The notes below the pieces were generated by a model, which worked only from the letters and a program-made list of their open reading frames with translations, searched no databases and was not told where the DNA came from. Below, in pieces: positions 7,545-50,949 of a DNA stretch of 64,000 bases; position 1 is the first letter of the stretch; the number at the start of each line of letters is the position of its first letter. The DNA lies in contig JANXNI010000081.1 of the NCBI GenBank assembly GCA_025354165.1, positions 1 to 64,000 of the forward strand. Direction: 5' to 3'. The DNA is from Burkholderiales bacterium (lineage in GTDB: Bacteria; Pseudomonadota; Gammaproteobacteria; Burkholderiales; Casimicrobiaceae). The translations under genes and the position numbers were made by a program.

Positions 7545-7660
7545 CAGCTTTTTTGTGAAATGACGAGTATATAAGGGCTACACGTTGTATTTTATAAAAG
7601 TCGATTAATGCCGAAAAGCATATGTTGCCCCGGTATAACGGTCGATTCCAAGAAAAGTTG
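7545..7660. repeat. 116-bp palindromic intergenic element, copy 1
   Basis: It starts CAGCTTTTTTGTGAAATG directly after the rsmI stop, has AAGGGCTA about 30 bases in, is centred exactly on TCGA (7601-7604), and the second half mirrors the first (ends AGAAAAGTTG). Only partial pairing is seen between the block ends. It fills most of the rsmI-mlaF gap. See the other copies for the shared pattern. Confidence 0.85.
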
Positions 7661-7695
7661 TTCGAAAAAATGACCACCCCGATACAATACTTTCC

Positions 7696-8538
7696 ATGAC
7701 ATTGGACTCCGTTTCTTCTCTCACCCCCGCCGCTCCAGCTATTGCTTGCGAAACGCTCGTTGAACTGAAGAACGTCAGCTTCGGCTACACCAAGGCACGG
7801 CAAATTTTGTCTGGCATTAATCTCATCGTTCCGCGCGGAAAACTGGTCGCCGTCATGGGCGGTTCCGGCTGCGGAAAGACCACGATTTTGCGGCTCTTGT
7901 GCGGCCAAATCAAGGCGACCAGTGGCGATGTATTGGTGAGCGGTCAATCGGTCGCCGAGATGAATCACGAGCAGATGTATGCGCATCGCCGCAGGCTCGG
8001 CATGCTGTTCCAGTTTGGCGCGTTGTTTACGGATCAAACCGTGTTTGAAAACATCGCCTTTCCGATGCGCGAACACACTGAATTGCCCGAAGAAATCATC
8101 CATGATCTCGTGCTCATGAAATTGAACGCCGTGGGCCTGCGAGGTGCCGCGAAACTAAAACCCAGTGAGCTTTCCGGCGGCATGGCGCGTCGCGTCGCGC
8201 TCGCGCGCACCATCGCGCTCGATCCCCAAATTGCGCTCTATGATGAGCCATTCGCGGGCCTCGATCCAATCTCGTTGTCCGTCGTTGGCCAGCTCATTCG
8301 CCGCCTGAACGATGCGCTCGGCATGACCTCGATTCTGGTCACGCACGACATCGCCGAATCATTGAAAATCGTTGACTACATTTACTTCGTTTCCGCAGGC
8401 AAAGTAGTCGCCCACGGCGACGTCGAGGCGATCAAAGCCAGCACCGATCCGTTCGTGCGGCAATTCGTCGACGGCCAGCCTGACGGCCCCGTGGGTTTTC
8501 ATTACCCGGCCAAAGCGCTTGCTGAGGATTTCGCGTGA
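7696..8538 (+). CDS. mlaF: Mla phospholipid transporter ATPase MlaF
   Basis: MlaF is the cytoplasmic ATPase of the MlaFEDB complex, which moves phospholipids between the inner membrane and the periplasmic carrier MlaC to keep outer-membrane lipid asymmetry. The 280 residues hold Walker [10 protein letters not shown], the signature LSGGMARR, Walker [14 protein letters not shown] and the switch His in LVTHDI. About 20 residues precede the usual start. It opens the mlaFEDACB operon; mlaE overlaps its stop by four bases. Confidence 0.95.
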
Positions 8539-9332
8539 ACGGTATCGCGCGGTTACTGACAAAACTGGGCGCATCGGTCACCGGTGGCATCGCCCGTCTC
8601 GGTTTCGCCACCCGCTTTTTCGTGGCCATCCTGCGCTTGAGCGGTACTACGTTTGCGCGGCCGCAACTCCTGTTGCGCGAGGTTTATCAGGCGGGCGTGC
8701 TCTCTCTCATCATCATCCTGATGAGCGGCCTGTTTATCGGCATGGTGCTCGCGCTTCAGGGTTACGAAACACTGGTGCGATTTGGCGCGGCAGAATCGAT
8801 GGGCATGTTAGTCGCGCTCTCACTGGTGCGTGAGCTCGGGCCGGTGGTTTCGGCACTCCTCTTCGCAAGCCGGGCCGGATCCGCGATCACCGCTGAAATC
8901 GGCCTGATGAAGACCACCGAACAGCTCGCTGCGATGGAAGTGATGGCCGTCGATCCGATTGCTCGTGTCGTGGCTCCGCGATTCTGGGGCGGTGTCATCT
9001 CGCTTCCATTGCTGGCGGCGCTGTTTTCAACGCTCGGGATCTATGGCGGTTATCTGGTCGGCGTGCGCCTGATCGGCATCGATAGCGGTGCCTACTGGGG
9101 ACAGATGTCGGCGGCAGTTGACTGGAAATATGACATCCTGAACGGCGTCATCAAAAGCCTTGTCTTTGCGGTGGCTATCAGCCTGATTGCGGTGTTTGAA
9201 GGCTATGATGCAACACCCACCGCCGAGGGGGTCTCAGCCGCCACCACGCGAACTGTGGTGACCTCGGCGCTGGCGATTCTCGCCCTTGATTTTGTACTCA
9301 CGGTCATCATGTTCCGTGGTGGAGCTGGATAA
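8535..9332 (+). CDS. mlaE: Mla transporter permease MlaE
   Basis: MlaE is the inner-membrane permease of the MlaFEDB lipid transporter. The 265-residue product has an N-terminal amphipathic part, then several membrane helices and the conserved family stretch [18 protein letters not shown] followed by [12 protein letters not shown]. It begins with GTG inside the mlaF stop (GTGA overlap), which is typical of coupled translation. mlaD starts on the very next base after its stop. Confidence 0.95.
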
Positions 9333-9869
9333 ATGAACAAAAAAATTATTGATTTATGGGTCGGCATTTTCGTAGCGATCGGTTTGGCCGCGCTGCTGTT
9401 TCTTGCCTTAAAAGTGGGCAATCTGCTCACCTTCAGCGAGGATCGTAAAGGCTACGAACTCGAGGCCCACTTTGAAAATATTGGCGCGTTAAAACCGCGC
9501 GCGCAGGTCAAAAGTGCTGGCGTTGTCGTAGGACGCGTTGAATCGGTACGGCTCGACAAAAAAACGTATGAGGCGGTCGCCCGCTTGCATCTTTTCCCTG
9601 AATATCAGTTTAGTCGCGACACCATCGCCACGGTGTACACCTCAGGGCTGCTCGGCGATCAGTTCATTGGTCTGGAGCCGGGCGGTGACACCGTTATGCT
9701 GAAGGACGAAGACCAGATCAAGAAAACCCAATCTGCAATTCAAATCGAAAAACTGATTTCGCAGTTTATGTTCAGCAAGGCTCAGGAAACACCGGCGCCC
9801 GTTGCTGCAACGCCAACCCCAGCCGCGGCCGCCCCAGCAAAGGTAGCGACACCCGGAGCCAAACCATGA
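9333..9869 (+). CDS. mlaD: Mla MCE-domain protein MlaD
   Basis: MlaD forms a hexameric ring in the periplasm, anchored to the inner membrane, through which lipids pass to or from MlaC. The 178 residues comprise an N-terminal membrane anchor (about 8-26), an MCE domain (about 40-118, with LKPRAQVKSAGVVVGRV and SGLLGDQFIGLEPGG) and a C-terminal Ala/Pro-rich tail. It abuts mlaE directly and overlaps mlaA by four bases. Confidence 0.95.
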   Translation: MNKKIIDLWVGIFVAIGLAALLFLALKVGNLLTFSEDRKGYELEAHFENIGALKPRAQVKSAGVVVGRVESVRLDKKTYEAVARLHLFPEYQFSRDTIATVYTSGLLGDQFIGLEPGGDTVMLKDEDQIKKTQSAIQIEKLISQFMFSKAQETPAPVAATPTPAAAAPAKVATPGAKP

Positions 9870-10576
9870 GTCGTACTTTCATCGTGCATGGCGTCAGCGT
9901 GATCGCTGGACTCGTTGCGCTGACGCTTTCCGGATGCGCTTCATTCCGGGCCGCCGCACCCGGTGACCCGCTGGAACCGGTCAATCGTGGCATCTACTCG
10001 TTTAACAGTACGTTCGATCATTACCTGCTGAAACCTATCGCCAAAGGCTACGACGCTGCGGTGCCCAATCTGGTGAAAACGGGCGTCAGCAACGTGTTTC
10101 AAAACGCAGCGGACGCGCAGTCAGTTGTGAGCGATGCCTTGCAGCTCAAGGGCGCAAAAATGGGAGATGATCTCGGCCGCGTGATCATCAACACCACGTT
10201 AGGTATCGGCGGAATTTTTGACCACGCAAGCGCAATGGGCATCGAGCGTGGCAACGAGGATCTGGGGCAAACGCTCGGCTATTGGGGCATTGGCGCGGGC
10301 CCCTATGTTGTGATTCCGTTCCTGGGCCCCTCGTCGCTGCGCGACGCGGTGGCGCGCTACCCGGAAGGTTTGTATGACCCCATCTCAACGCTGTCATCCG
10401 TACCGGTGCGCAACTCGTTACTGGGTGTGCGTGCGGTGGATGCGCGCGTGGGACTGTTCCCGGCTGAGAGCCTGATGAATCAGGCGGCGCTGGATCGCTA
10501 CACATTTTTGCGCTCTGCTTACTTGCAGCGGCGACAGAGCCTCGTGCTGGACGGTAAACGTCCAAAAGATGAATAA
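9866..10576 (+). CDS. mlaA: Outer-membrane lipoprotein MlaA (VacJ)
   Basis: MlaA sits in the outer membrane and removes mislocalised phospholipids from its outer leaflet, handing them to MlaC. The 236-residue protein has a lipoprotein signal with lipobox LSGC at residues 22-25, then the family stretch DPLEPVNRGIYSFNSTFD and IINTTLGIGGIFDHA, and GQTLGYWGIGAGPYVVIPFLGPSS. Its place inside the mla operon, between mlaD and mlaC, is common in betaproteobacteria but not in E. coli, where vacJ is separate. Confidence 0.95.
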   Translation: MSRTFIVHGVSVIAGLVALTLSGCASFRAAAPGDPLEPVNRGIYSFNSTFDHYLLKPIAKGYDAAVPNLVKTGVSNVFQNAADAQSVVSDALQLKGAKMGDDLGRVIINTTLGIGGIFDHASAMGIERGNEDLGQTLGYWGIGAGPYVVIPFLGPSSLRDAVARYPEGLYDPISTLSSVPVRNSLLGVRAVDARVGLFPAESLMNQAALDRYTFLRSAYLQRRQSLVLDGKRPKDE

Positions 10577-10592
10577 AAGGAATTTGAGCAGT

Positions 10593-11192
10593 ATGAAACG
10601 TAACAAATTGATCGCGATGTTCGCGTCGGTCGCACTCTTGGCATTGATGCCGGCCTCCGCGCAGGTTGCGCCTGACGAGATGGTAAAAACTGCCGCGACG
10701 GCGGTCACCTCCGTGCTCAAAAGCGACCCCGCCATCCTCGGCAACCCCGCCAAGCTGAAAGAGCTGATCGAGAATAAACTGCTCCCGAACTTCAATTTTC
10801 AGCGCATGACTCAGCTCGCAATGGGCCGTAACTGGGCCAAAGCCTCGCCCGAGCAGCAAACGGCGTTGACCAAAGAATTCCAGACCCTTCTGGTGCGCAC
10901 CTACTCCGGCGCGCTCGCGAGCTTTCGCAACAACACCATCGATTACAAGCCCTTGCGCATGGCGGCTGGCGAGACCGACGTTACCGTAAAAACCGTGGTT
11001 AATCAGGCTAATGGTCAAGGCATCCCGATTGATTATTCGCTCGAAAAAGCTGCCGATGGCAATTGGAAAGCCTACGACATCATCGTCGCTGGCGTCAGCC
11101 TTGTCACCAACTATCGCGACGAATTCAATACTGTCATTCGCGACCAGAGCGTTGATGCGCTGATCAAGCAGTTGCAGGCAAAAAACAAGTAG
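10593..11192 (+). CDS. mlaC: Periplasmic phospholipid carrier MlaC
   Basis: MlaC ferries phospholipid between MlaA and MlaFEDB. The 199-residue product begins with a Sec signal (KRNKLIAMFASVALLALM, cleavage after ASA), followed by the family core VKTAATAVTSVLKSDPA, NFQRMTQLAMGRNWAKA and YDIIVAGVSLVTNYRDEF. An in-frame ATG at 10569 inside mlaA would add eight residues; the start at 10593 is preferred because the signal peptide begins there. Confidence 0.94.
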   Translation: MKRNKLIAMFASVALLALMPASAQVAPDEMVKTAATAVTSVLKSDPAILGNPAKLKELIENKLLPNFNFQRMTQLAMGRNWAKASPEQQTALTKEFQTLLVRTYSGALASFRNNTIDYKPLRMAAGETDVTVKTVVNQANGQGIPIDYSLEKAADGNWKAYDIIVAGVSLVTNYRDEFNTVIRDQSVDALIKQLQAKNK

Positions 11193-11194
11193 TT

Positions 11195-11431
11195 ATGCAG
11201 CTTTCCGGGCCGCTCACCTTTGCCAACGTGCCCGCTTTGTGGGAAACGTTTGTAGTCGATGCCGTCGGTAAAGAGCGTATTGACGTCTCCGCCGTGACAG
11301 AGGTCGATTCGGCGGGGCTCGCCCTCATTTCGGCACTGAAGCGAAAAGCCGGACCACAATGCCGGGTGGTTGGTTTGACCGCGAAATTGGCTACGCTTGC
11401 CTCCGCCTACGACGTCGAAGCGCTGTTCTAA
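11195..11431 (+). CDS. mlaB: Mla STAS-domain protein MlaB
   Basis: MlaB is a small cytoplasmic STAS protein that binds MlaF and is needed for complex assembly and ATPase activity. The 78 residues hold the STAS core with IDVSAVTEVDSAGLALISAL, where the D-S-A-G loop is the phosphorylatable-type site. It starts two bases after the mlaC stop. It is shorter than E. coli MlaB but complete for the domain. Confidence 0.9.
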   Translation: MQLSGPLTFANVPALWETFVVDAVGKERIDVSAVTEVDSAGLALISALKRKAGPQCRVVGLTAKLATLASAYDVEALF

Positions 11432-11493
11432 TCCTCAGAACCCGGCTCGGGCGCTTGCTGCCCTAAAATCAGCAGGCTTAACCGAAGGCCTTC

Positions 11494-12408
11494 GTGATTT
11501 CTGATTCATCTGTCCCTGCTGTTGATTTAGTCGACATCAGCAAATCCTACCCCAATGTTCGCGCGCTCAACCACGTTTCACTGCGTGTCGAGCAGGGCGA
11601 ATTTTTTGCGTTGCTCGGCCCGAACGGTGCGGGCAAAACCACGCTTATTAGCATCCTTGCCGGACTAACGCGCGCCGACAGTGGCACCGCGAAAATCATG
11701 GGCTTCGATACGATTTCTGATTACCGCAACGCGCGCAAAAATCTCGGCGTCGTGCCGCAGGAGCTGGTGTTTGATCCCTTCTTCACGGTGCGCGAAACGC
11801 TGGCCATCCAGGCCAAGTATTACGGCGTGACCAAAGCCGACGCGTGGATCGATGAAATCCTGCATAACCTCGACTTGACGGATAAGGCCAACGCCAACAT
11901 GCGTGCGCTTTCCGGCGGCATGAAACGTCGCGTGCTGGTCGGGCAAGCGCTCGTGCACAAACCGCCCGTCATTGTGCTCGATGAGCCGACAGCGGGCGTC
12001 GATGTTGAGCTGCGGCAAAACCTGTGGACCTTCATCAAACGTTTGAACAACGAAGGGCACACCATTATTTTGACCACGCATTACATCGAAGAGGCCGAGG
12101 CGATGTGCGCCCGCGTGGCGATGCTTAAAAATGGCGAAGTTGTGGCGCTTGATACGACGGCCAATTTGCTGCGGGGTATGGCCGGGATTACCGTGCAGGT
12201 GTCCGCTGCCTCGTTGCCGCCGTCGTGGCGTGAACGCGCTGAGACGCAGGCGAGCGGCGCGGTGGGCTTCACGCTGAGTGGATACGCCGAACTCGAATCC
12301 ATGCTCGCGGCGTTTCGCGATGCCAATATCGCAATTAAGGAAATGAAGCTTGGCGAAGCCGACCTTGAGCAAGCCTTTTTGCGGTTGACGTCGAAGGAGG
12401 CTGCATGA
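11494..12408 (+). CDS. ABC-2 type transporter ATPase (YadG-like)
   Basis: The 304-residue protein is the ATP-binding subunit of an ABC-2 exporter: Walker A GPNGAGKTT, signature LSGGMKRR, Walker B VIVLDEPTAGVD, and a C-terminal extension of about 80 residues typical of the YadG/DrrA class. The start is GTG at 11494. The next gene, the permease, overlaps it by four bases. The pair follows mlaB in the same direction. The exported substrate is unknown; the position beside mla may suggest an envelope role, which is inference. Confidence 0.9.
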   Translation: MISDSSVPAVDLVDISKSYPNVRALNHVSLRVEQGEFFALLGPNGAGKTTLISILAGLTRADSGTAKIMGFDTISDYRNARKNLGVVPQELVFDPFFTVRETLAIQAKYYGVTKADAWIDEILHNLDLTDKANANMRALSGGMKRRVLVGQALVHKPPVIVLDEPTAGVDVELRQNLWTFIKRLNNEGHTIILTTHYIEEAEAMCARVAMLKNGEVVALDTTANLLRGMAGITVQVSAASLPPSWRERAETQASGAVGFTLSGYAELESMLAAFRDANIAIKEMKLGEADLEQAFLRLTSKEAA

Positions 12409-13258
12409 ATCCCGTCCCCATTCAGGCGAGTCAGGCGAATCAGACCGCTGCACCCCTTATCGTCGCATCATCCGTTGCGCCGCACTCGTCACCGCTCCTG
12501 GGTCCAGGTTTTCAGGCGCTCTTCTACAAGGAATGCCTGCGTTTCTGGAAGGTCGCTGCGCAAACGGTGGTGGCTCCCGTCGTCACAACATTGCTCTATC
12601 TGCTCATTTTTTCGCATGTGCTTCAGGGTACCGCCAAAGTATTCGATGGACGCGTGAGCTACGGCGAATTTCTGATCCCCGGTCTCATCATGATGGCGAT
12701 CCTGCAGAACGCGTTTGCCAACAGTTCGTCCTCGCTGATTCAGTCGAAAATGATGCGAAGTCTGATCTTCATACTGTTGCCGCCGATCACGTCGCTGGAG
12801 ATTTTCTGCGCGTATGTGTTCGGCTCAATGGTGCGGGGACTCTGCGTCGGCCTGGGTGTTTGGCTAATTACCCTGCCATTCATCCCTGCCAGCGTGCTGC
12901 ATCCGCTCTGGGTGATTGCCTTTGCGGCGGGCGGCAGCGCCATCATGGGCACGCTCGGTTTGATCGCTGGCATCTGGTCGGAAAAATTTGACCATCTCGC
13001 GCTCTTTCAAAACTTCATCATCATGCCGCTCACGTTTCTTTCGGGCGTGTTTTATTCGATTCATTCGTTGCCGGCCTTCTGGCAAAGTTTGTCGCACTTC
13101 AATCCTTTTTTCTACATGATCGACGGCTTCCGTTTCGGCTTCTTCGGCCTCTCGGACTTGAGCCCGTGGCTATCGCTCTCGGTCGTCATGTTTTTCGTCG
13201 TTCTCCTCTCCATCGTTGCCATGCGGATGCTGGCGACGGGTTACAAACTGAGACAGTA

Positions 13259-13259
<1 letters not shown>
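12405..13259 (+). CDS. ABC-2 type transporter permease (YadH-like)
   Basis: The 284-residue integral membrane protein has about six transmembrane helices after a 35-residue cytoplasmic N-terminus, with the ABC-2 membrane signature region QNFIIMPLTFLSGVFYSI. It starts within the ATPase stop and its own stop (TAA) shares one base with the bolA start, so ATPase, permease and bolA look co-translated. Substrate unknown. Confidence 0.9.
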
Positions 13260-15406
<2,147 letters not shown>

Positions 15407-15410
15407 GTAG

Positions 15411-15437
15411 ACTGTGGGAGCGGTTTTGCCACGATTG
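15411..15437 (+). repeat. REP-like sequence after hisG
   Basis: Five bases after the hisG stop lies TGTGGGAGCGGTTTTGCCACGA, which folds on itself (GTGG/CCAC and CGG/CCG-like pairing) and resembles the GTAGGAGCG REP class and the copy at 18017. It is a single unit here, with no inverted partner nearby. Confidence 0.6.
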
Positions 15438-15491: not shown

Positions 15492-15607
15492 TAGCTTTTT
15501 CTCGGAATGACCATTGTATGTGGGCCAGGGGCCCAATATGCAAAATATCGACAAACCCATAATTTGCGCTATACCCCTTGATAAATGGTGATTACAGACA
15601 AAAGCTG
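15492..15607. repeat. 116-bp palindromic intergenic element, copy 2 (hisG-hisD gap)
   Basis: Begins TAGCTTTTTCTCGGAATG, has GTGGGCC about 30 bases in, is centred exactly on TCGA (15548-15551), and ends ACAAAAGCTG, the mirror of the start. Length and symmetry match copy 1 to the base. It sits inside the his operon, ending 18 bases before the hisD ATG. Confidence 0.8.
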
Positions 15608-21581: not shown

Positions 21582-21698
21582 TGGCTTTTCTGAGAAATCG
21601 CAGTTCGCGCTTGGGCGACAGGTCAAATTGATGTGATGTCGACTTTAAGCGAAATACGGCTGTATCCCATAATAGGAAGTGGTTTTAGCGAAAAGCTG
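21582..21698. repeat. Palindromic intergenic element, copy 3
   Basis: Begins TGGCTTTTCTGAGAAATC, centre GTCGAC (TCGA at 21639-21642), ends TTTTAGCGAAAAGCTG. It is 117 bp, one base off perfect symmetry. It lies in the 430-base divergent gap between the DUF456 gene and the Old Yellow Enzyme gene; nothing else recognisable is in that gap. Confidence 0.75.
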
Positions 21699-23083: not shown

Positions 23084-23200
23084 CAGCTTCTGAATGAAAC
23101 CGTTATCTGCATTGGGGCAATGGGTCGTTTCGCGGTAAATCGACTTTTGCACAAATCGCTTGCTGCCCCAATTGCAATAATGGATTGATGGCAATAGCGG
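23084..23200. repeat. Palindromic intergenic element, copy 4
   Basis: Begins CAGCTTCTGAATGAAACC, has TTGGGGCA about 30 bases in, centre AAATCGACTTT (TCGA 23140-23143), then the mirrored TGCCCCAATTG block. The right tip (AATAGCGG) is worn compared with AAAAGCTG. It is in the 324-base gap ahead of the dockerin/head-repeat protein. Confidence 0.7.
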
Positions 23201-32290: not shown

Positions 32291-32406
32291 CAGCTTTTCA
32301 CTGAAAGTACGACTACACGTGGGCTAAAGGCAAAATAGCGCTAAAGTCGAAAATTTGCCTAATGGCCGTTTAGCCCATACGCATAGGGCATTCCAGCGAA
32401 AAGCTG
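32291..32406. repeat. 116-bp palindromic intergenic element, copy 5
   Basis: The best-preserved copy. It starts CAGCTTTTCACTGAAAG and ends CCAGCGAAAAGCTG, with TGGGCTAAA on the left and TTTAGCCCA on the right, and TCGA at the exact centre (32347-32350). By hand, about 34 of 58 positions match between the two arms, concentrated in the tips and the GGGCTAAA block. Confidence 0.88.
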
Positions 32407-39806: not shown

Positions 39807-39922
39807 TGGCTTTTTGCTACAGCGCCGATTGTATAGGGGATGAACGCGGAAAATGTCGATAATCGACTTTTGCCTAAACCAGCGTTTAGCCCCTATTAAA
39901 CTTGGGCCGTACGGTAAAGCTG
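39807..39922. repeat. 116-bp palindromic intergenic element, copy 7
   Basis: Begins TGGCTTTTTGCTACAGC, has TATAGGGGATG about 30 bases in, TCGA at the exact centre (39863-39866) and a second TCGA seven bases earlier, then GTTTAGCCCCTATTA and ends GGTAAAGCTG. The remaining parts of this 629-base gap (39651-39806 and 39923-40200) hold nothing I recognise. Confidence 0.8.
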
Positions 39923-41225: not shown

Positions 41226-43520
41226 ATGATCGCGCAAGAGTTAGAAGTCAGTTTGCACATGGCATTTGTCGAAGCCCGGCAAAAGCGCCATGAATTCATC
41301 ACCGTTGAGCACTTGCTGCTCGCCATGCTCGACAACCCGAGCGCGGCCGAAGTGATGCGCGCGTGTGCCGTTGATCTCGACGAGTTGCGCACCGCGCTCG
41401 CCAATTTCATCAACGAACATACGCCGCGCTTGCCGCAAAACAGCGAGAGCGACACGACGCCGACGCAGGGTTTCCAGCGCGTGATTCAACGCGCGATTTT
41501 GCACGTGCAATCGTCGGGCAAAAAAGAAGTGACTGGTGCCAACGTGCTCGTCGCGATTTTTGGCGAGAAGGATTCACACGCGGTTTATTTCCTGAATCAG
41601 CGCGGCGTCACGCGTCTCGACGTTGTGAACTACATCAGCCACGGCATCAGCAAAGTCCCGAAAGACAAGAACGAAAAAGCAGAAGCCGGTGAAGGCGAAA
41701 CCGCGAAGGAAGAGGCCCCGCAAGGCGCGCTCGAAAACTTTACGGTCAACCTGAATGCCCAAGCCAAAGCGGGCAAGATCGATCCGATGATCGGTCGGGC
41801 GAACGAGCTTGAGCGTCTCGTGCAAATCCTCTGCCGTCGTCGCAAAAATAATCCGCTGCTCGTGGGTGAGGCTGGCGTGGGCAAAACTGCCATCGCTGAA
41901 GGTCTCGCCAAACGTATCGTCGATAAAGAAGTGCCGGACGTGCTCGCCGATTGCGTGGTGTACTCGCTTGATATGGGCGCGTTGCTCGCTGGCACTAAAT
42001 ATCGCGGTGATTTTGAAGCGCGGTTGAAGGCGGTGCTCAAGCAGCTTTCCGAAAAAGCCAACGGCATTCTGTTCATCGACGAAATTCACACCATCATTGG
42101 TGCAGGCGCCGCCAGTGGCGGCACGCTTGACGCTTCGAATCTGCTCAAGCCTGCATTGTCAAATGGCGGCTTGAAGTGTATTGGAGCGACGACTTACGCC
42201 GAGTTCCGTCAGGTGTTCGAGAAGGACAATGCGCTCGCGCGCCGCTTCCAGAAAATCGATGTCGTTGAGCCTTCCATTAGCGAGACCGTTGAGATTCTGC
42301 GTGGACTGAAACCCAAATACGAAGCGCATCACAACGTCAAATATTCGCCCGCTGCGATTACCGCTGCTGCTGAATTGTCTGCGCGTCACATCAACGATCG
42401 TCATCTGCCCGACAAGGCCATTGACGTGATTGATGAGGCCGGTGCCGCACAAAAAATTCTGCCGAAATCGAAGCAGAAGAAAACCATCGGCAAGAGCGAG
42501 ATTGAAGACATCGTCGCCAAGATTGCTCGCATTCCCGCGAAGACGGTTTCCACCGATGATCGCAATAGTTTGCGCACATTGGATCGCGATTTGAAGAACG
42601 TGGTTTATGGGCAGGACAAGGCAATCGAAGCGCTGACATCCGCCATCAAAATGGCGCGTAGTGGCCTCGGCAATCCACGCAAACCGATTGGCTCGTTCCT
42701 GTTCTCTGGCCCGACAGGCGTGGGAAAAACCGAAGTCGCGCGGCAGCTTGCGTTTAGCCTCGGCGTAGAGCTTTTGCGCTTTGACATGAGCGAGTACATG
42801 GAGCGACACGCGGTGAGCCGTCTGATCGGCGCGCCACCGGGTTATGTGGGCTATGACCAGGGCGGACAGTTGACCGAAGGCGTGACAAAAAATCCGTACT
42901 GCGTGCTCCTGCTCGACGAAATCGAAAAAGCGCACCCAGACATCTACAACGTGTTGTTGCAGGTGATGGATCACGGCACGCTGACCGACAACAACGGTCG
43001 CAAAGCGGACTTCCGCAATGTGATCATCGTGATGACCACGAACGCGGGGGCGGAGACGCTGACCAAAAACGTCATTGGCTTCAACAACAGCAAAGAAGTC
43101 GGCGACGAGATGGAGGCCATCAAGCGCATGTTCACGCCCGAGTTCAGAAATCGCCTCGACGCGACGATCAGCTTCGGCGCGCTCACGCACGAGGTCATCC
43201 TGAAAGTGGTCGACAAGTTCCTCCTTGAACTCGAAGGTCAACTGCACGAGAAAAAGGTTGATCCCGAATTCTCGCAAGCGCTGCGTGATTACCTCGCCAA
43301 AAAAGGCTTCGACCCGCACATGGGCGCGCGCCCAATGGCCCGCCTCATTCAGGACACGATTCGTCGTGCCTTGGCCGACGAATTGTTGTTCGGCAAGTTG
43401 GTCGGCGGCGGCAAGGTGATGATCGACATTGATGTCGACGCGAAAGGGGATGGCAAAGTGAAGCTTACATTCCCGGAAAACGACGTGCCAAAAGAGGCAG
43501 CGGAAGAGGCGACGGTTTAG
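41226..43520 (+). CDS. clpA: ATP-dependent Clp protease ATPase subunit ClpA
   Basis: ClpA unfolds substrates and feeds them to ClpP. The 764-residue protein begins MIAQELEVSLHMAFVEARQK (Clp N-domain), then AAA+ module 1 (Walker A GEAGVGKTA, Walker B ILFIDEIH) and module 2 (Walker A GPTGVGKTE, Walker B VLLLDEIEKAH). The ClpP-binding loop is in the second module. ATG 41226 is the start. A UUCG-loop terminator follows. Confidence 0.98.
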   Translation: MIAQELEVSLHMAFVEARQKRHEFITVEHLLLAMLDNPSAAEVMRACAVDLDELRTALANFINEHTPRLPQNSESDTTPTQGFQRVIQRAILHVQSSGKKEVTGANVLVAIFGEKDSHAVYFLNQRGVTRLDVVNYISHGISKVPKDKNEKAEAGEGETAKEEAPQGALENFTVNLNAQAKAGKIDPMIGRANELERLVQILCRRRKNNPLLVGEAGVGKTAIAEGLAKRIVDKEVPDVLADCVVYSLDMGALLAGTKYRGDFEARLKAVLKQLSEKANGILFIDEIHTIIGAGAASGGTLDASNLLKPALSNGGLKCIGATTYAEFRQVFEKDNALARRFQKIDVVEPSISETVEILRGLKPKYEAHHNVKYSPAAITAAAELSARHINDRHLPDKAIDVIDEAGAAQKILPKSKQKKTIGKSEIEDIVAKIARIPAKTVSTDDRNSLRTLDRDLKNVVYGQDKAIEALTSAIKMARSGLGNPRKPIGSFLFSGPTGVGKTEVARQLAFSLGVELLRFDMSEYMERHAVSRLIGAPPGYVGYDQGGQLTEGVTKNPYCVLLLDEIEKAHPDIYNVLLQVMDHGTLTDNNGRKADFRNVIIVMTTNAGAETLTKNVIGFNNSKEVGDEMEAIKRMFTPEFRNRLDATISFGALTHEVILKVVDKFLLELEGQLHEKKVDPEFSQALRDYLAKKGFDPHMGARPMARLIQDTIRRALADELLFGKLVGGGKVMIDIDVDAKGDGKVKLTFPENDVPKEAAEEATV

Positions 43521-43541
43521 TTCGAACCGCGTCGATCACGC

Positions 43542-43568
43542 AAAACGGCAGCTTCGGCTGCCGTTTTT
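43542..43568 (+). terminator. Intrinsic terminator after clpA
   Basis: An 11-bp perfect stem AAAACGGCAGC/GCTGCCGTTTT closed by a UUCG tetraloop and followed by T. The palindromic element copy 8 starts five bases later. Confidence 0.93.
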
Positions 43569-43572
43569 GTAT

Positions 43573-43690
43573 CAGCTTTTTTGGTGAAATGGTTGCTGCG
43601 TGCGGGCTGATCGTCGATTTATCGTAATACGTGAGCGCAAATTGCCAACGTCACTTGCAGCCCAATTGCGATGGCGGTGTGTATCGCCCG
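43573..43690. repeat. Palindromic intergenic element, copy 8 (overlaps a gene end)
   Basis: Begins CAGCTTTTTTGGTGAAATGG, has GCGGGCTGA about 30 bases in, and the mirrored TGCAGCCCAATTGC on the right, which matches the right arm of copy 4. The centre has diverged (no clean TCGA at the midpoint) and the right tip is lost. The right arm supplies the last codons and stop of the minus-strand DUF6624 gene. Confidence 0.55.
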
Positions 43691-44316
43691 CCGAACGCAG
43701 CGGCATATTGTGATATTGACCTTAGCCCAATACTTGCGCGGATTGCGTCGAGTTTGGCTTCGTTCTCCTCGACCAACGGTCGCCACGCAAAGCCTCCTCC
43801 GGGCCGGTAGCAAACTTGCGAACCATAGACCTGTGGTCGCCCATTGCGCACATTGATGCGATCCTCAAGTGTTGCCAGATGAGTTGGATCGGCCTCCTTG
43901 GCGACGACCGCCGCCTTGAGCGACGGTAGATACGTTTCCTGAACCGGTAGCGGCGAGTGTTGCACGATCAGAAATGCGGCGAGGGCAGCTTTCTCGCCGA
44001 ACGCAGATTTCGTAGGCCAGACAAATTTGCAAACGATCGTGTCAAGCAGCGCAAGATTTTCTCTATCGACTGTAAGCCGTTCTTTGATCCGCTTGTCTTT
44101 CTCCTCAGGCGATAACGGATTCATCGCTGACGAATCACCGACCCCGCCCAGATTTTTGCGAACCAACTGATCTCGTACCACCGCCGCTTCGAGTTGCGTG
44201 CGCGCTTCAGCAATCGTTCCTGCGAAAGCGGATGCGACGTCGCAGCGCTGCGCGAACGCAGCCGTTGACGCGAACAACAAGCCGACCAAAGCAAGCATTT
44301 GGCTGATGCGTGTCAT
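43651..44316 (-). CDS. DUF6624-like secreted protein
   Basis: The 221-residue protein has a signal peptide (about 1-22, cleavage after AFA) and the DUF6624 pattern: CKFVWPTKSAFGEKAALAAF, LIVQHSPLPVQETYLPSL, LEDRINVRNGRPQVYGSQVC. The function of the family is unknown. It is the last of four genes with four-base overlaps (argH-SemiSWEET-reductase-this). Its last residues (SQLGCK) come from sequence shared with palindromic repeat copies. Confidence 0.8.
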   Translation of the reverse strand: MTRISQMLALVGLLFASTAAFAQRCDVASAFAGTIAEARTQLEAAVVRDQLVRKNLGGVGDSSAMNPLSPEEKDKRIKERLTVDRENLALLDTIVCKFVWPTKSAFGEKAALAAFLIVQHSPLPVQETYLPSLKAAVVAKEADPTHLATLEDRINVRNGRPQVYGSQVCYRPGGGFAWRPLVEENEAKLDAIRASIGLRSISQYAAAFGGRYTPPSQLGCK

Positions 44317-45173
44317 CCTAATCGCTTGATCAAACTTGAAGTATCCAGCCGGTTGCCTCCCGCCTGTTGCACGTCCGCGTAGAACTGATCGACGAGCGCT
44401 GTGACAGGCAGCCTCGCGCCATTGCGTTTGGCCTCATCAAGGCAGATGCCCAAATCCTTGCGCATCCAGTCGACTGCAAAACCAAAGTCGAATTTGCCCT
44501 CGACCATTGTGCTGCCGCGATTTTCCATTTGCCAGCTTTGCGCTGCGCCTTTGCTGATGACATCGAGCACGAGCTTGGCGTCGATGCCCGCTTTTTGCGC
44601 GAACGCGAGGCCTTCAGCGAGTGCTTGCACAAGGCCCGCGATGCAGATCTGGTTCACCATTTTTGTGAGTTGCCCCGCGCCGCTTGGCCCCATCAGTGTG
44701 ACGGCTTTCGCGTAAAGCGCGAGCACGTGTTTCACCGAGTCGAACGCAGCCTGATCGCCGCCGCACATGATGGTGAGCTTGCCGTTCTCAGCGCCTGCCT
44801 GACCGCCGGAGACGGGTGCGTCGATGAAGTGTTTGCCGAGCTTTTTGGCTTCAGCATCGACCTCACGTGCGACATCGGCTGAAGCCGTGGTGTGGTCGAC
44901 CAGCACTGCGTTAGCGCCCAAACCCGCGAGCGCGCCGTCGGTGCCGTAGATCACCGAGCGCACGTCGTTATCGTTGCCGACGCACATCAAGACGATGTCT
45001 GCATCATGTGCTGCTTCACGCGGAGTCGCTGCCGAGGCTCCTCCAAAGGCCGCAACCCACATCGCTGATTTCTCGGCGTTGCGGTTGTAAACGGTGACGC
45101 TATGGCCACCTTTTTGCAGGTGACCGGCCATTGGAAAGCCCATTACGCCAAGGCCCAAGAATGCTAATTTCAT
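44313..45173 (-). CDS. 3-hydroxyisobutyrate dehydrogenase-like reductase
   Basis: A beta-hydroxyacid dehydrogenase family member of 286 residues: Rossmann motif FLGLGVMGFPMAGHL, VDHTTASADVAREV, the substrate-loop FIDAPVSGGQAGAENGKL, and the catalytic Lys region GQLTKMVNQI. The likely activity is NAD(P)-dependent reduction of a small hydroxyacid (for example tartronate semialdehyde), but the substrate cannot be told. Four-base overlaps with both neighbours. Confidence 0.92.
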   Translation of the reverse strand: MKLAFLGLGVMGFPMAGHLQKGGHSVTVYNRNAEKSAMWVAAFGGASAATPREAAHDADIVLMCVGNDNDVRSVIYGTDGALAGLGANAVLVDHTTASADVAREVDAEAKKLGKHFIDAPVSGGQAGAENGKLTIMCGGDQAAFDSVKHVLALYAKAVTLMGPSGAGQLTKMVNQICIAGLVQALAEGLAFAQKAGIDAKLVLDVISKGAAQSWQMENRGSTMVEGKFDFGFAVDWMRKDLGICLDEAKRNGARLPVTALVDQFYADVQQAGGNRLDTSSLIKRLG

Positions 45174-45445
45174 TGTGTATTTCCAGTTACAGTCTTATCG
45201 AATAACAGTTTCATCACGCAGATTGCGAGTGAGAGTCCGAACGTGATTGCGTTCGCGGTCATGATCGACATTGAGCCGACATTGATGCCGTACAGCAACC
45301 ATAGAAATGTACCCACCGTGAACACCGCGACCATGCCCCACGACAGGTCGCGCGCCGAGCGTGTCTGCCAGATTTTCCAGACTTGCGGGATGAAGGACGC
45401 GGTGGTGAGGGTGCCGGCCATCAGGCCCAGGGTTTCAGCGTTCAA
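45170..45445 (-). CDS. SemiSWEET sugar transporter family protein
   Basis: A 91-residue protein with three membrane helices and a PQ motif ([20 protein letters not shown]), the bacterial half-size SWEET; two copies form a sugar pore. It starts with TTG overlapping the argH stop (TTGA). A sugar transporter between argH and a hydroxyacid reductase is an unusual pairing; substrate unknown. Confidence 0.88.
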
Positions 45446-46860
45446 GCGAGTCTTGCCTTCGCCAACTTGATCTCTTCACGAACACGCTCAGGCGCGGTGC
45501 CGCCCACATGCTTGCGCGCCGCGACCGAGCCTTCGAGCGTGAGCGAAGCGAACACGTCCTCAGTAATCACCGACGAGAACGCTTGCAATTCCACGAGCGA
45601 CAACTCCGCGAGATCAACGCCTTTAACTTCGGCCGCCTTCACCGCACGCGCGACACATTCATGCGAATCACGGAACGGCACGCCTTTGCGCACAAGGTAG
45701 TCCGCGAGATCGGTTGCCGTAGCAAATCCCTCGCTCGCCGCAGCACGCATGCGATCCGCTTTGACGCGAATGCCGCCGATCATGTCGGCGTAAATAATCA
45801 GCGTTTGCGTGATCGTTTCTACGGTATCGAACAGCGGCTCTTTGTCTTCCTGATTGTCCTTGTTGTAGGTCAGCGGCTGGCCTTTCATGAGCGTCGTCAG
45901 CGCCACGAGATGCCCCTGAACGCGCGCCATTTTTCCACGCACAAGCTCCGCCACATCTGGGTTTTTCTTCTGCGGCATGATCGAACTGCCCGTGCAGAAA
46001 CGATCCGCAATATCAATGAAACCAAAGCGCGGGCTCATCCACAAAATCAGCTCTTCGCTAATGCGCGAAAGGTGCATCATTGTGATCGTGCATGCGTTCA
46101 AAAACTCAATCGCAAAATCACGATCACTCACGGCGTCCAGCGAGTTGCGACACACAGCGTCAAAGCCCAGCGCCTTCGCTGTCATCTCGCGATCAATCGG
46201 AAACGTCGTGCCCGCGAGCGCGGCCGCTCCGAGCGGCGAGCGGTTTACACGCTTTCGGCAATCGAGAATCCGCTCATGGTCACGTGCAAACATTTCTACA
46301 TAAGCCATCAAATGATGACCTAGCGTCACCGGCATTGCCACCTGCAAATGCGTGAAACCTGGAAGAATCGTGTCGGTGTGAAACTCCGCAAACTTGACAA
46401 ACGCGAGCTGTAATTTCACCAGCAGATGCGCGATCTGATCGCATGCCGCGCGGGTGTACAGGCGCACATCGGTCGCCACCTGATCATTGCGCGAACGGCC
46501 CGTGTGCAGGCGCTTTCCGGCATCGCCAACGAGTTTCGTCAGACGCATTTCAACGTTGAAATGAACGTCTTCCAGATCGAGCGACCATTCAAATTTTCCC
46601 GATGCGATTTCGTCCTTGATCGTTGCCATGCCGCGCTCGATGTCGGCGAGATCCTGCGCCGTGATCACACCGACGGCGGCGAGCATGCGCGCATGCGCGA
46701 GCGAACCGGCAATGTCAAATTCGGCGAGCCGATAGTCAAACGGAATCGACGCCGTGTAGCGCTTGACGATTTCGGCAACGGGCTCATCGAAGCGACCGGA
46801 CCAGCCAGAGGAGGTTGAAGCGGAGGAAGGGTTGACGGCGACTGATGGGGATGCTTGCAT
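45442..46860 (-). CDS. argH: Argininosuccinate lyase
   Basis: ArgH splits argininosuccinate into arginine and fumarate. The 472-residue protein has the superfamily signature [34 protein letters not shown] and [15 protein letters not shown]. It leads the minus-strand four-gene operon and is divergent from algZ (92-base gap), the same neighbourhood as argH-fimS-algR in Pseudomonas. Confidence 0.98.
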
Positions 46861-46952
46861 GTTCGGGTGGTCTGGAATAGGCTCGAAAGTCGCGAAGACG
46901 TAGAGCCATAAGCAGGCGCGAATAAGTCGCCGAGGACGATTACATTCACACC

Positions 46953-47987
46953 ATGAAGACGCAAATTTTAGCCCGCAAGGAGCGTGACGCGCGGGAGGCG
47001 GTGTTTCCCGACCTTAGGAACGTCGGCATTCTCGCGCGCGCGCTCATCCTGTATATGGCGATGGTGCTCGCCTATGCGCTCGCGATCACCGCGCAGCCGT
47101 ATGACCTGATCATCAATATTGCTGTCGTGCTGGCGGCTGGCTTGCCAGTGGCAGCGCTGGTCGGCGCTGCGTGGGCCTTATTGACCCCGTGGCTGCGTCG
47201 GCTCGCCTATTGGCAAGCGGCATGGCTGCTAACTGCGCTGACGGTGATGGTGGCCGCATGGGGAGCACGATTGACCGACGCGCCGCCCTGGCGTGCTGTG
47301 CCACTTGCACTACTTGGGTTGGTCGCGATTCTGGTTTACTTTCACACGCTGGGTCGCGCGCTGTCCCCGGCGGTCACGGAGGCAAGATTGCAGGCACTAC
47401 AGGCGCGTATCCGACCGCACTTCCTGTTCAACTCAATCAACGGTGTGCTGGGCGTGTTACGCGCTGACCCGAAGCGGGCGGAAACCGCGCTGGAAGACAT
47501 GGCGGACCTGTTTCGTGTGCTGATGCGCGAGAACCGCGATCTACAGCCGCTTGCCGACGAAATCACGTTGACGCGGCAATATCTCAACCTCGAAAAAATG
47601 CGCCTCGGTGATCGCCTTAACGTAGTGTGGAAATTGGACAAAATGCCGCCTGACGCTGTCGTGCCGCCGCTCGTGTTGCAGCCGATTGCCGAGAACGCCG
47701 TGTATCACGGCATCGAGCCAACGCAAGCTCCGGGCGTGATCGAAATCGAAGTCGCACGATTGAGGGGTGAAATCACTATCACCGTGAAAAATCCCTTCCT
47801 CGAACGGGCTGGGGCGCATCACGGCGGCAATAAGATGGCGATGAGCAATATTCGCGAACGGCTAGCGCTGCACTTTGACGCCGAGGCACGCGTGAGCTCC
47901 GGTCCGCGCGATGGTCGCTATCAGGTGCAGCTCGTGTTGCCCTACGTCGCCATGACAAAAACCACTGACACCCGATCTCTAGTATGA
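46953..47987 (+). CDS. algZ: LytS/AlgZ-type sensor histidine kinase
   Basis: The 344-residue protein has about four membrane helices (about 25-140), then the His_kinase domain with the phosphorylated-type His in [16 protein letters not shown] and the N-box [10 protein letters not shown]. The G-box is reduced, as in the FimS/AlgZ family. It overlaps algR by four bases and lies next to argH, as in Pseudomonas argH-fimS-algR. Signal unknown. Confidence 0.9.
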
Positions 47988-48757
47988 CCAATATGGCCGC
48001 CCCTGTCCGCCCCAAACGCATCATCATCGCCGACGACGAACCGCCCGCGCGCCGCCGTTTGTTTGACCTGCTGGATGAGCTGCAACCCGCGTTCCCGCAC
48101 GTTGTTGTGGCCGAGGTGGACAACGGTCGCGCCGCGCTGCAGGCTGCGCAGCAGGGCGCCGACGTGGTTCTGCTCGACATCAACATGCCCGAAATGGACG
48201 GCCTCGAAACCGCACGCCATTTGCTCAAAATGGACAACGCGCCGAGTGTGATTTTCATTACGGCGTATGAGCAGCATGCGCTCGCTGCGTTCGAAGTTCA
48301 TGCGGTGGATTATTTGCTGAAACCGGTGCGTCGTGAGCGATTGCTGGCCGCACTGCAACGCGTCGCGCCACTGACCGAAACCCAGCTTGAAGCGTTGCCG
48401 CGTGGCGCTCGACGTTACCTGAGCATCAGCGAGCGTGGCCGCCTGTTACTAGTGCCCAGCGATGATGTGATTTTTTTTCGCGCTGAGCAAAAGTACATCA
48501 CTGTCGTCACCGCCGAAAAAGAGCACTTGCTGGAGGATTCACTCACCCGAATCGACGAGGAGTTCGGTGGCAGATTTTTGCGTATTCACCGCAATTGTCT
48601 GGCCCGAGCTGATTTGATTGAGACGTTTGAGCGCGATGCCGATGCTGACGGTGAGGCGCAGTGGATCGTTACGCTGCGCGGGCGTCCGGAACGCCTGCCT
48701 GTGAGCCGCAGGCAACATGCTCAGGTTCGCTCACTGGCGAAACGGGTCAGAGAGTAG
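47984..48757 (+). CDS. algR: LytTR-family response regulator (AlgR-like)
   Basis: A 257-residue regulator with a receiver domain (about 7-130; phospho-Asp in DVVLLDINMPEMDG; FITAYEQHALAAFEVHAVDY) and a LytTR DNA-binding domain (about 145-255; RIHRNCLARADLIE, LPVSRRQ). It forms a two-component pair with the kinase upstream. In Pseudomonas, AlgR controls alginate, twitching and virulence; targets here are unknown. Confidence 0.95.
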   Translation: MTNMAAPVRPKRIIIADDEPPARRRLFDLLDELQPAFPHVVVAEVDNGRAALQAAQQGADVVLLDINMPEMDGLETARHLLKMDNAPSVIFITAYEQHALAAFEVHAVDYLLKPVRRERLLAALQRVAPLTETQLEALPRGARRYLSISERGRLLLVPSDDVIFFRAEQKYITVVTAEKEHLLEDSLTRIDEEFGGRFLRIHRNCLARADLIETFERDADADGEAQWIVTLRGRPERLPVSRRQHAQVRSLAKRVRE

Positions 48758-48914
48758 GGCCATACTCTAAGAAGTTCCGATGGACGCCGGCGAAAGGCCT
48801 GCGGCGATGTCGGTGTACTCCCTGCGCAGTTGTCTCTGTTGTCATTTCCTGCACTGCCGCAAGTTCCTTCGGCGTGAATAGAATGCTCGCTTCATCAAAG
48901 AAAAAATCCTCTTC

Positions 48915-49856
48915 ATGCAAGAACCCCGTGTCCTCATCTGTGGCTCTATGGCCTTTGACACAATTTGTGTGTTTCAGGGGAAGTTTGCGGATCACATCGT
49001 GTCGGGTGCCACGCACAAAATCAACGTGTCGTTTCTGGTTGAAAACATGCGCCGCGAGTTTGGTGGTTGCGCGGGCAATATTGCTTACTCGTTGAGGCTC
49101 TTGGGTGGTGCGCCGGTGATCTGCGCGACGATTGGCGACGATGGCGCAGATTATCGTGATCGTATGGCGCGGCTTGGCATTGGCCTGGACGCCGTCACCG
49201 TCGCGCCGGGCTCGTTCACCGCGAACTGCCACATCACGACCGATCTTGATGACAACCAGATCACGAGCTTTCATGCGGGCGCGATGTTTCAGTCGCAATT
49301 GAATGACGTGACCGCCATCGACAAGATCGCGCTCGGCATCGTTGCACCCGATGGTCGCGATGGCATGTTCCGTCATGCGCGCGGTTTCGCGTCGAAAAAA
49401 ATTCCTTTCATCTTCGATCCCGGTCAGGCGATGCCTGCGTTCTCCGGCGATGAAATCGTCGAGCTGATCGGCATGGCCGATTATTTGACGGTGAACGATT
49501 ACGAAGCCGAAATGATCGCGCAGAAAACCGGTCGCCCGATTGAGTCCTTCGCGCCGGGATTGAAGGCGCTGATCGTGACGCTGGGCGCGCAGGGCTCACG
49601 AATTTATGCTGACGGTAAGTTCACCGACGTGCCGGTGGTGCCAGCGACGACGCTGGTTGATCCAACGGGCTGTGGTGACGCATTCCGCGCTGGCCTCCTG
49701 TACGGCATCGCGCATCAATGGTCGGTGGAAAAGGCGTGCAAACTGGGCAGCCTGCTGGGCTCGATCAAGATCGGCGAGCGCGGCGGTCAAAATCACCAGT
49801 CAAGTGTGGATGCGCTTCGGGAGCGCTTTGTGACGACGTGGAAAGAGGCTTGGTAG
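48915..49856 (+). CDS. PfkB-family kinase, adenosine kinase-like
   Basis: The 313-residue protein is a PfkB sugar/nucleoside kinase: VLICGSMAFDTICVFQGKF, GGCAGNIAYSLRLLGG, and the C-terminal anion-hole motif DPTGCGDAFRAG with the catalytic Asp. The F-G-G-C-A-G-N segment and length fit bacterial adenosine kinases. It would salvage adenosine to AMP, which fits the adenine-deaminase gene in the same window. Convergent with the bactofilin gene. Confidence 0.88.
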   Translation: MQEPRVLICGSMAFDTICVFQGKFADHIVSGATHKINVSFLVENMRREFGGCAGNIAYSLRLLGGAPVICATIGDDGADYRDRMARLGIGLDAVTVAPGSFTANCHITTDLDDNQITSFHAGAMFQSQLNDVTAIDKIALGIVAPDGRDGMFRHARGFASKKIPFIFDPGQAMPAFSGDEIVELIGMADYLTVNDYEAEMIAQKTGRPIESFAPGLKALIVTLGAQGSRIYADGKFTDVPVVPATTLVDPTGCGDAFRAGLLYGIAHQWSVEKACKLGSLLGSIKIGERGGQNHQSSVDALRERFVTTWKEAW

Positions 49857-49870
49857 ACGCGCCCCCAGCG

Positions 49871-49892
49871 CCCGCACTTCCAAATGTGCGGG
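49871..49892 (+). terminator. Possible hairpin between convergent kinase and bactofilin genes
   Basis: CCCGCAC (49871-49877) pairs with GTGCGGG (49886-49892), loop of eight. No T-run follows, so termination is uncertain. Confidence 0.35.
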
Positions 49893-49899
49893 ATTAGCG

Positions 49900-50604
49900 T
49901 TACGCCCGGATCGCCGACTTCTGCGACACCGTGATCGACATCGACGAATAGCCATCTTCAAAGCGGCCATCGGTCATCGGGCCGAGGTCGAAGCCGTCGA
50001 GCACTTTTGGCACGACGCGCTTGATATCGGCGGCGCTGACCTTGGCCTGTTTGGCCAAACCAATTTCGGTGGCGCGAATCTTTCCGATCAGCGTCGCGCT
50101 GGGGAACACCGCGAGTGAACCGCGCACTTGTAGCGAGCCATCGAATTCGCCGAGAATTTCGCCTTCATTGACGCGGACGGAACCCATCACGCGGCCCCCT
50201 TCAGCGATGATGATTTTATGAGCGTGAACGGTGGCCTCCAGCGTGCCAAGCACACGCAGTGTCTGACAGTAAATCGGCTGATCCGTCGTCATCGTCATAT
50301 CTTTACCGATGGTCAGTACGCCGTCGAGACCGGAGACGGCCATCGTGCATTCGCCGTCCCGTGGCATGATTTTGGAGAGTTCGGACGGCGTGATGGTGGG
50401 GGCCATCGTGTAGTCGCGAATCTTGTGTCCGGTTTCGTCTTTTGCGCCGAGAGCAGACAGTGAATCACCGAGCACGGCGAGCGTATGCGCAAGATGTGGA
50501 TCAATGCCCGGGTTGCCAGCATGCCCGGGTGACGACGGCATTAGTCGGTTCGTCGCCAACGATGCGCCGGTTTTGCCGCCAAACCAATTTGCAATGAAGC
50601 CCAT
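49900..50604 (-). CDS. Bactofilin (polymer-forming cytoskeletal protein)
   Basis: The 234-residue protein has a long N-terminal part and a beta-helix core with the bactofilin repeat pattern (TLRVLGTLEATVHAHKIII; GSVRVNEGEILGEFDGSLQV; SATLIGKIRATEIGLAKQAK). Bactofilins form filaments and help shape cells or place cell-wall enzymes. The extended N-terminus is longer than usual. It is separated from the CsgG-like gene by 494 bases holding a palindromic element. Confidence 0.88.
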   Translation of the reverse strand: MGFIANWFGGKTGASLATNRLMPSSPGHAGNPGIDPHLAHTLAVLGDSLSALGAKDETGHKIRDYTMAPTITPSELSKIMPRDGECTMAVSGLDGVLTIGKDMTMTTDQPIYCQTLRVLGTLEATVHAHKIIIAEGGRVMGSVRVNEGEILGEFDGSLQVRGSLAVFPSATLIGKIRATEIGLAKQAKVSAADIKRVVPKVLDGFDLGPMTDGRFEDGYSSMSITVSQKSAIRA

Positions 50605-50833
50605 ATTACGCCCTCAGTTTCAGTGATCTGCTCACTCTATGGCAAGGTGCGTGCCTGAGCACTTTCCCGGGGATTCATCCGAAAAAAAACGGTTTCGCAG
50701 TCAATTTTCGTGTTGCAACATGACGAAATTTGACACCCGTGTGACGAGTTGTGCTGACGGAGTGACGGCGGCACACCGGTTTGCGCGTCGCGTGTGATGA
50801 TCCACGGCTGCTTTCCGGCGTGAATTCTATTTA

Positions 50834-50949
50834 CAGCTTTGTCGTGAAAGTGCCGCTTAATAGGGGCTGTGTTCGATTTATTCTTTAAGTCGACTTACGA
50901 GCTTTTAAGCGTCTAATCCAAGCAGGAAGGTATTTGTAAAAGAAAGCTG
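50834..50949. repeat. 116-bp palindromic intergenic element, copy 9
   Basis: Begins CAGCTTTGTCGTGAAAGTG, has ATAGGGGCTG about 30 bases in, AAGTCGACTT at the exact centre (TCGA 50890-50893), and ends AAAAGAAAGCTG. Length and symmetry match copies 1, 2, 5 and 7. The flanks of this 494-base gap (50605-50833 and 50950-51050) show nothing else that I recognise. Confidence 0.85.

Follow-up and report, generated by a model that had tools for sequence, protein, structure and literature searches.

A 64,000-nucleotide stretch of contig JANXNI010000081.1 from a Burkholderiales bacterium of the family Casimicrobiaceae (assembly GCA_025354165.1), hereafter called the window, carries eight full copies of a 116-bp dyad element in the gaps between genes. 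Judged from the genome sequences, these copies appear to belong to a real, old and selected set of large dyad DNA sites that are regularly spaced and specific to one genus of uncultured bacteria. We consider it probable that each site is a large two-fold platform on which protein binds and DNA is wrapped, and that the set serves to organize the chromosome.

Copies were located with a matrix of 58 half-site positions that was trained on copies from the source genome of the window (G000; the other genomes of the genus are G001 to G016) and then iterated. Paired inverted half-sites occur at 105 places in 610 kb, with scores of 22.9-113 and a reversed-sequence maximum of -5; this set was selected by pattern and is hence biased. 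A tip pattern with 12 fixed bases matches 159 times in the same genome, compared with 0 times for the reversed pattern. Unselected continuous segments of five genomes were also scanned with species-specific two-arm matrices, and a copy was called at a score of 20 or at the highest reversed-sequence score plus 1, whichever was higher. The yield was 56 copies from 582 kb in G000, 30 from 400 kb in G005, 51 from 280 kb in G007, 26 from 200 kb in G002 (the least secure set, with a reversed maximum of 24.9) and 13 from 200 kb in G012. Extrapolation of the first of these figures gives about 450 copies per G000 genome. Within the window, the two-arm weight matrix finds eight full copies of exactly 116 bp each, which score 42.6-107.2 versus at most 7.3 over 582 kb of reversed sequence, the matrix having been trained on a set that includes them. 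These copies and one possible relic are as follows.

7545..7660, no strand assigned: full element, score 96.6, directly 3' of the stop codon that ends a predicted rsmI-like gene
15492..15607, no strand assigned: full element, score 98.7, between hisG-like and hisD-like genes
21583..21698, no strand assigned: full element, score 65.6, in a divergent gap
23084..23199, no strand assigned: full element, score 48.8, in a co-directional gap
32291..32406, no strand assigned: full element, score 107.2 (the best in the window), 4 bases past a predicted stop codon
35505..35620, no strand assigned: full element, weaker, score 42.6, in a convergent gap
39807..39922, no strand assigned: full element, score 85.4, in a co-directional gap with both genes on the minus strand
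43574..43631, plus strand: possible relic, left half-element only, half score 20.9 and two-arm score 2.2, in a convergent gap
50834..50949, no strand assigned: full element, score 76.2, in a co-directional gap with both genes on the minus strand

A preliminary description of this stretch had reported a dyad element that recurs in intergenic gaps and has CAGCTTTTnnnTGAAA tips, a GGGCTA-like block and a TCGA center, and the two-arm matrix agrees with that outline. Of the nine copies that it counted, eight stand as full elements. The ninth, which it placed at 43573, is at best a one-armed relic, and its score does not establish even this status: both strands of the reversed 582 kb give half scores of 17.6, 20.2 and 26.6, which puts the relic below the maximum. 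Three copies described as 117-118 bp long prove to be 116 bp when registered at 21583, 23084 and 35505. No match to a named family was found. An Rfam search of the window at gathering score returned no family for it, a distant blastn search of plasmids and phages with the best window copy as the single query matched nothing, and a word search within one collection of literature found no paper describing such an element family. At that Rfam cut-off, the window's sole match is a tRNA gene at 54811-54884. A bactofilin-domain gene at 49900-50604 adjoins the element at 50834.

The half-site consensus in G000 reads CAGCTTTTnnnTGAAAnnnCnnTTnnAtnnGGGCTAnnnnnnnWWWWnnnnnnWWrTC, followed by its mirror image about TCGA. 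Base-specific blocks are AGCTTTT close to the tips, GGGC at roughly 25 bp from the dyad (the GGGCTA block occupies half-positions 31-36) and TC|GA at the dyad itself, and half-positions 45-47 and 54-55 need only A or T (94-99% A+T). Each half holds 42.9 bits of information, of which 21.3 distinguish A+T from G+C and 21.6 are base-specific. The resulting total of about 86 bits per site (without correction for sample size), versus the roughly 13.3 bits that suffice to locate 56 sites in 582 kb, is unusual for a genome-wide binding site. The A+T content is also helically phased. Inside the element the best period is 9.4-10 bp, varying with the part analyzed. In the flanks of G000 copies, a period of 10.7 bp (power 0.082 versus a jitter-null maximum of 0.032) extends about 35 bp past each tip, for a total span of more than 130 bp, and a larger pattern-selected set of 193 flanks shows similar phasing with a best period of 11.3 bp. 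An apparent avoidance of TpA at half-positions 44-47 (60/94 versus an expectation of 5/16) was dropped because it is close to the 60% of intergenic control runs.

The form of the element differs among species. Its length is 116 bp in 50 of 56 copies in G000, 117-118 bp in 27 of 30 in G005 and 118 bp in 40 of 51 in G007. In the G007 consensus, GGGCGA replaces GGGCTA, with G making up 61% at half-position 35, and the TGAAA block has mostly disappeared. Because the consensus changes in concert in a species-specific manner, and does so without copying, this pattern points to a probable trans-acting reader that co-evolves with its sites.

The symmetry of the element is not accompanied by a real constraint on pairing, which is what a dyad protein site predicts. 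If pairing were selected, the two arms of one copy should match each other more often than arms taken from different copies. Among 71 copies of 116 bp, the arms match at 30.9 of 58 positions versus 30.6 when arms are shuffled between copies (z 0.97), and arm symmetry as evidence for a hairpin, one of the options in the preliminary description, is not confirmed. In 69 aligned copies, 62.8% of positions form standard pairs versus 62.2% after shuffling (75 of 500 shuffles were as high), and covariation is 0.188 versus 0.183 (104 of 500 were as high), which is no excess of compensatory changes. Arm pairing elsewhere gives z values of -0.9 and 1.55 for the two main lengths in G005 and -0.07 in G002.

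Copies of the element within one genome share a median identity of 41-55% and a maximum of 57-71% (142 copies from five genomes, 22-37 each), and the label "near-exact" in the preliminary description is not confirmed. However diverged, the copies tend to occupy the same gene junctions in different species. Among orthologous gaps in the unselected segments, 16 hold an element in both genomes, 10 in one and 96 in neither (odds ratio 73, p 5e-12), with the G002-G007 pair supplying 74 of the 122 gaps and 14 of the 16 with an element in both. A larger set, which includes loci chosen for their elements, gives corresponding counts of 45, 30 and 285. Spacer agreement is 0.319 for orthologues versus 0.302 for non-orthologues, which is near saturation (it is higher, at 0.50-0.58, in the closest pair, G000-G001), and the blocks at shared junctions stay recognizable despite this. 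The conserved junctions, near-saturated spacers and kept blocks together support the earlier suggestion that a site is under selection and that the copies are not simply recent duplicates. In three of the 10 discordant cases, the gap lacking an element is at most 37 bp long, which fits deletion, and gain is also possible.

Two junctions in the window illustrate this conservation. At the rsmI junction (7545), the element is found in seven of the eight relatives whose junctions were compared, namely G001, G004, G005, G006, G012 and G014, and also G007, where it scores 38 with that species' own matrix; G002 reaches only 19.8, which is below threshold. At the hisG-hisD junction (15492), five of the eight relatives have it (G001, G004, G006, G012 and G014, with the G012 copy weak and beside an insertion), and it is missing from G002, G007 and G005, the last of which has a junction of about 40 bp. 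Judged by these patterns, the elements are most readily seen as old and vertically inherited, not as active mobile DNA.

A covariance model using sequence only and built from 69 copies gave matches in 16 of 17 genomes of the genus, G000 included, and in 0 of 43 others, with at most 61 candidates scored per genome. Likewise, in an order-wide sample of 399 genomes, matches were obtained for six of seven genus members and for 0 of 392 others from 157 genera, in a scan whose stricter filters and nine candidates scored per genome could miss weak or divergent copies. The family therewith appears restricted to the genus in the samples searched, and the profile search for more copies that the preliminary description had proposed was productive both in the genome itself and among its relatives. 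G016 gave no elements with the model, 32 kb of it being read directly, and G009 gave a handful of model matches, with none in 162 kb of its contigs. Both are small genomes (about 2.5 Mb) and offer a natural contrast for finding the reader gene.

Three pattern scans brought up 21 viral contigs, and only one of these has a convincing element. This contig (L140), which carries genes for a repressor, a primosomal protein and a DNA ligase, has one element of score 69.9 between two genes at 8842-8958. Its position is reminiscent of the central gyrase site of phage Mu. Candidates at L141 (30.7, with the weakly specific G002 matrix) and at L280, L289 and L292 (23-24, with the G002 or G007 matrices) were not counted, as the G000 matrix gave them no support, and nine loci of other named bacteria are chance pattern matches with two-arm scores of at most 5.5.

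Placement along the chromosome was assessed with genes called by a simple custom gene finder and with gaps of at least 100 bp. Elements favor the 3' ends of genes and convergent gaps: summed over the five genomes, they occupy 40 of the 99 convergent gaps, 94 of the 384 co-directional ones and 27 of the 158 divergent ones. A facing stop codon lies at a median distance of 22-31 bp in four species and of 93 bp in G012 (nine cases). Outside called genes lie 164 of 176 copies, as did all 109 of an earlier pattern-selected set. The elements are also spaced more evenly than chance in four of the five species. Compared with random choice among gaps of the same orientation, the coefficient of variation of spacing is 0.64 versus 0.98 in G000 (p<0.001), 0.60 versus 0.94 in G005 (p 0.001), 0.64 versus 0.94 in G007 (p<0.001) and 0.47 versus 0.86 in G002 (p<0.001). 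Mean spacing is 5.4-12 kb in these four species and 16 kb in G012. On the complete G005 chromosome, the 89 places among the best matches listed show no bias over ten bins (chi-square p 0.93).

Because the sites appear to be old, vertically inherited, conserved at their junctions and evenly spread, a role in chromosome architecture or topology seems most likely. A protein complex would bind the double-stranded, two-fold site of about 116-118 bp through the AGCTTTT, GGGC and TCGA blocks. Since the A+T content is helically phased, the bound complex might bend or wrap the DNA between these blocks and, at least in G000, beyond the element. Purifying selection would then keep hundreds of such sites at the same gene junctions and evenly spread, where they could act, for example, as anchors or as gyrase-type loading sites marking off supercoil domains some 5-12 kb long. 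Perhaps, and we offer this more tentatively, the genus possesses a grid of several hundred nucleosome-like wrapping sites of 116-118 bp, read by a single co-evolving complex, that sets supercoil domains of 5-12 kb in cells where gyrase is the sole type IIA topoisomerase detected. To our knowledge, it is not settled whether the supercoil domains of bacteria end at fixed boundaries defined by sequence. If our proposal is true, then hundreds of conserved, symmetric and evenly spaced sites, written in a code that differs by species, become sequence-defined candidates for such boundaries, and finding the protein that binds them would make the question testable. For scale, a recent modeling paper takes a 21-kb topological domain to be in line with reported sizes in E. 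coli (PMC12622846).

Several observations weigh against this architectural role. The binding protein is putative. A small excess of arm pairing is seen in the unselected G000 copies (30.8 versus 30.0, n=50, z 2.06) and in G007 (n=40, z 1.84). Flank phasing exceeds the jitter null only in G000; the G007 flanks have a period of 10.6 bp with a power of 0.025, slightly below the null maximum of 0.029, and those of G005, G002 and G012 are well inside the null. The conservation of junctions between distant pairs rests on few gaps. Twelve of the 176 copies lie inside called genes (nine in G007, two in G002 and one in G012). Finally, G012 lacks the convergent preference (1 of 13 convergent gaps is occupied), and the spacing of its 13 copies, 0.66 versus 0.82 for random choice, does not differ significantly from chance (p 0.18).

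As a special case of the architectural role, the elements might be strong DNA gyrase sites similar to BIME-2 or to the strong gyrase site (SGS) of Mu, a possibility that we regard as doubtful. The DNA would wrap both GyrA C-terminal domains and be cut at the 4-bp TCGA dyad, which is conceivable to the same limited degree, as is the accompanying idea that the sites are placed where positive supercoils collect. The 4-bp palindromic center within a dyad of 116-118 bp, the 10.7-bp period of the G000 flanks, the preference for convergent and 3'-end gaps, and the phage contig that carries an element as Mu carries its SGS are all in keeping with gyrase, as are a likeness to the 130-bp gyrase motif of E. 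coli and the attraction of gyrase to BIME-2 (PMC6379681).

The topoisomerase content of the genus also favors this special case. ParC was over the cut-off in 0 of 17 genus genomes and in only 4 of 19 other family genomes searched. ParE scores were 676-708 bits in four other, ParC-bearing genomes and at most 525 bits in 11 genus genomes, where the hits are full-length GyrB-like genes; this reading is a relative one, as no genome reached the curated ParE cut-off and the ParC-bearing four fell just under it. From these searches, gyrase thus seems to be the one type IIA topoisomerase that the genus has. However, because other genera of the family without ParC over the cut-off are also without elements, the absence of ParC is context and not proof.

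Other evidence speaks against gyrase and, in part, against the broader architectural role. Half of the information in the element is base-specific, unlike the degenerate E. coli gyrase motif, and the internal A+T period is 9.4-10 bp rather than 10.75 bp. The SGS of Mu, at its annotated gyrase cut site, does not clearly stand out under the A+T profile of the element: its predicted dyad ranks 1612, 2300, 1347 and 1188 of about 36,600 with four profile widths (the first being 1612 of 36602). An unusual GyrA was sought and not found, as the GyrA of the genus is ordinary apart from a short tail. G009 and G016 have an ordinary GyrA yet few or no elements, and therefore the sites are not essential to gyrase. 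The GyrA tail, Q-x-E/D-L-I/L/V at the C terminus, is present in 13 genus genomes and not in 12 other aligned GyrA proteins; we presume a loose resemblance to the beta-clamp-binding motif. An architectural protein that is sequence-specific and confined to the lineage, whether on its own or together with gyrase, is no less likely a reader than gyrase itself. The TCGATAAA center resembles the E. coli H-NS site, but H-NS was rejected as a candidate because it does not follow the elements: its domain is matched in 6 of 26 genomes, G009 and G016 among these six, and in none of the element-rich genomes G001, G006 and G007.

The elements could alternatively be remnants of an ancient MITE or REPIN family whose blocks were kept as transposase-binding ends, which is unlikely and already disfavored. 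Hundreds of dispersed, lineage-specific intergenic palindromes would suit such an origin, as would those orthologous gaps of at most 37 bp that are explicable by gain. A Y1 transposase is matched in all 11 of the genus genomes with elements that were tested, and G009 and G016 have no such match, a distribution that also fits; however, Y1 genes occur in four of five tested genomes outside the genus as well. The single Y1 match in G000 (C58:14400-14648) carries an in-frame TAA. Recent near-identical copies, as expected of a MITE, are lacking among those compared (highest pairwise identity 0.71), and the near-saturated spacers with kept blocks, conserved junctions and even spacing are likewise contrary to this origin. 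The identity of left and right flanks is no different from that of shuffled ones in 25 of the 28 tests made on four genomes (k 2-9), and the remaining three, with p values of 0.016-0.032, each fall at a different k, which leaves no convincing target-site duplication. Lone arms are rare, with two scoring above 18 in 582 kb of G000. Inverted pairs of lone arms separated by 150-6000 bp, as for a full-length transposon with the same ends, were not found in segments of G000, G005, G007 and G012. The two RAYT-like genes in the examined segments have no element close by, the nearest being about 2.4 kb away in G005 and about 5 kb away in G007, where one side was seen. The transposase site offered in the preliminary description is accordingly not supported.

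It is improbable that the elements are operators of a large regulon under one transcription factor. A species-specific consensus over many sites does imply a trans-acting reader, as a regulon would require. However, the Pfam-annotated genes beside the window copies are functionally unrelated, and neither the 3'-end and convergent preference nor the even chromosomal spacing is expected of operators.

Very improbable is the notion that the elements are RNA structures of 3' regions, for instance processing signals, hairpins or bidirectional terminators. Their proximity to facing stop codons in four of five species, the complementarity of the consensus arms and the weak pairing excess in unselected G000 copies would agree with it. 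An RNA hairpin was nevertheless rejected on the covariation counts, with the small pairing excess remaining. Moreover, the elements also occur in divergent gaps and have no Rfam match, and in 102 co-directional copies the two arms are of equal strength with respect to the direction of transcription (p 0.83). The hairpin or RNA-processing factor of the preliminary description is thus not sustained. Integron attC sites, which fold as single strands with R and L boxes and lie next to an integrase, are unlikely because the elements are several kb apart and lie at conserved housekeeping junctions.

Among known systems, the RAYT-associated REP/BIME and REPIN sequences resemble the element in being dispersed, intergenic and present in high copy number, and they favor gaps downstream of genes that are unidirectional or convergent (PMC3733652). 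The element differs from them in its dyad of 116-118 bp without pairing constraint, its even spacing, its conserved junctions and the lack of near-identical copies among those compared. Membership by a hairpin tagged with GTAG or CGTC was rejected, as pairing covariation is absent and the tags are rare: GTAG and CGTC occur within 6 bp of the tip in 5 and 0 of 112 cases in G000, 3 and 3 of 60 in G005, 2 and 3 of 102 in G007, and 0 and 0 of 26 in G012.

Gyrase sites of E. coli offer a second comparison. They have in common a motif of 130 bp whose arms, with a periodicity of 10.75 bp, lie symmetrically around a cleavage site of 4 bp, and BIME-2 repeats attract gyrase (PMC6379681). Like a strong gyrase site, the element has a large dyad, a 4-bp center and helically phased composition, and its length of 116-118 bp is close to but not 130 bp. 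Unlike the E. coli motif, it has base-specific blocks, and gyrase binding here is putative.

The systems of matS with MatP and of parS with ParB also consist of many fixed chromosomal sites read by one protein. Their sites are short and regionally restricted, whereas those described here are about 116 bp long and, among the matches listed for the G005 chromosome, without regional bias.

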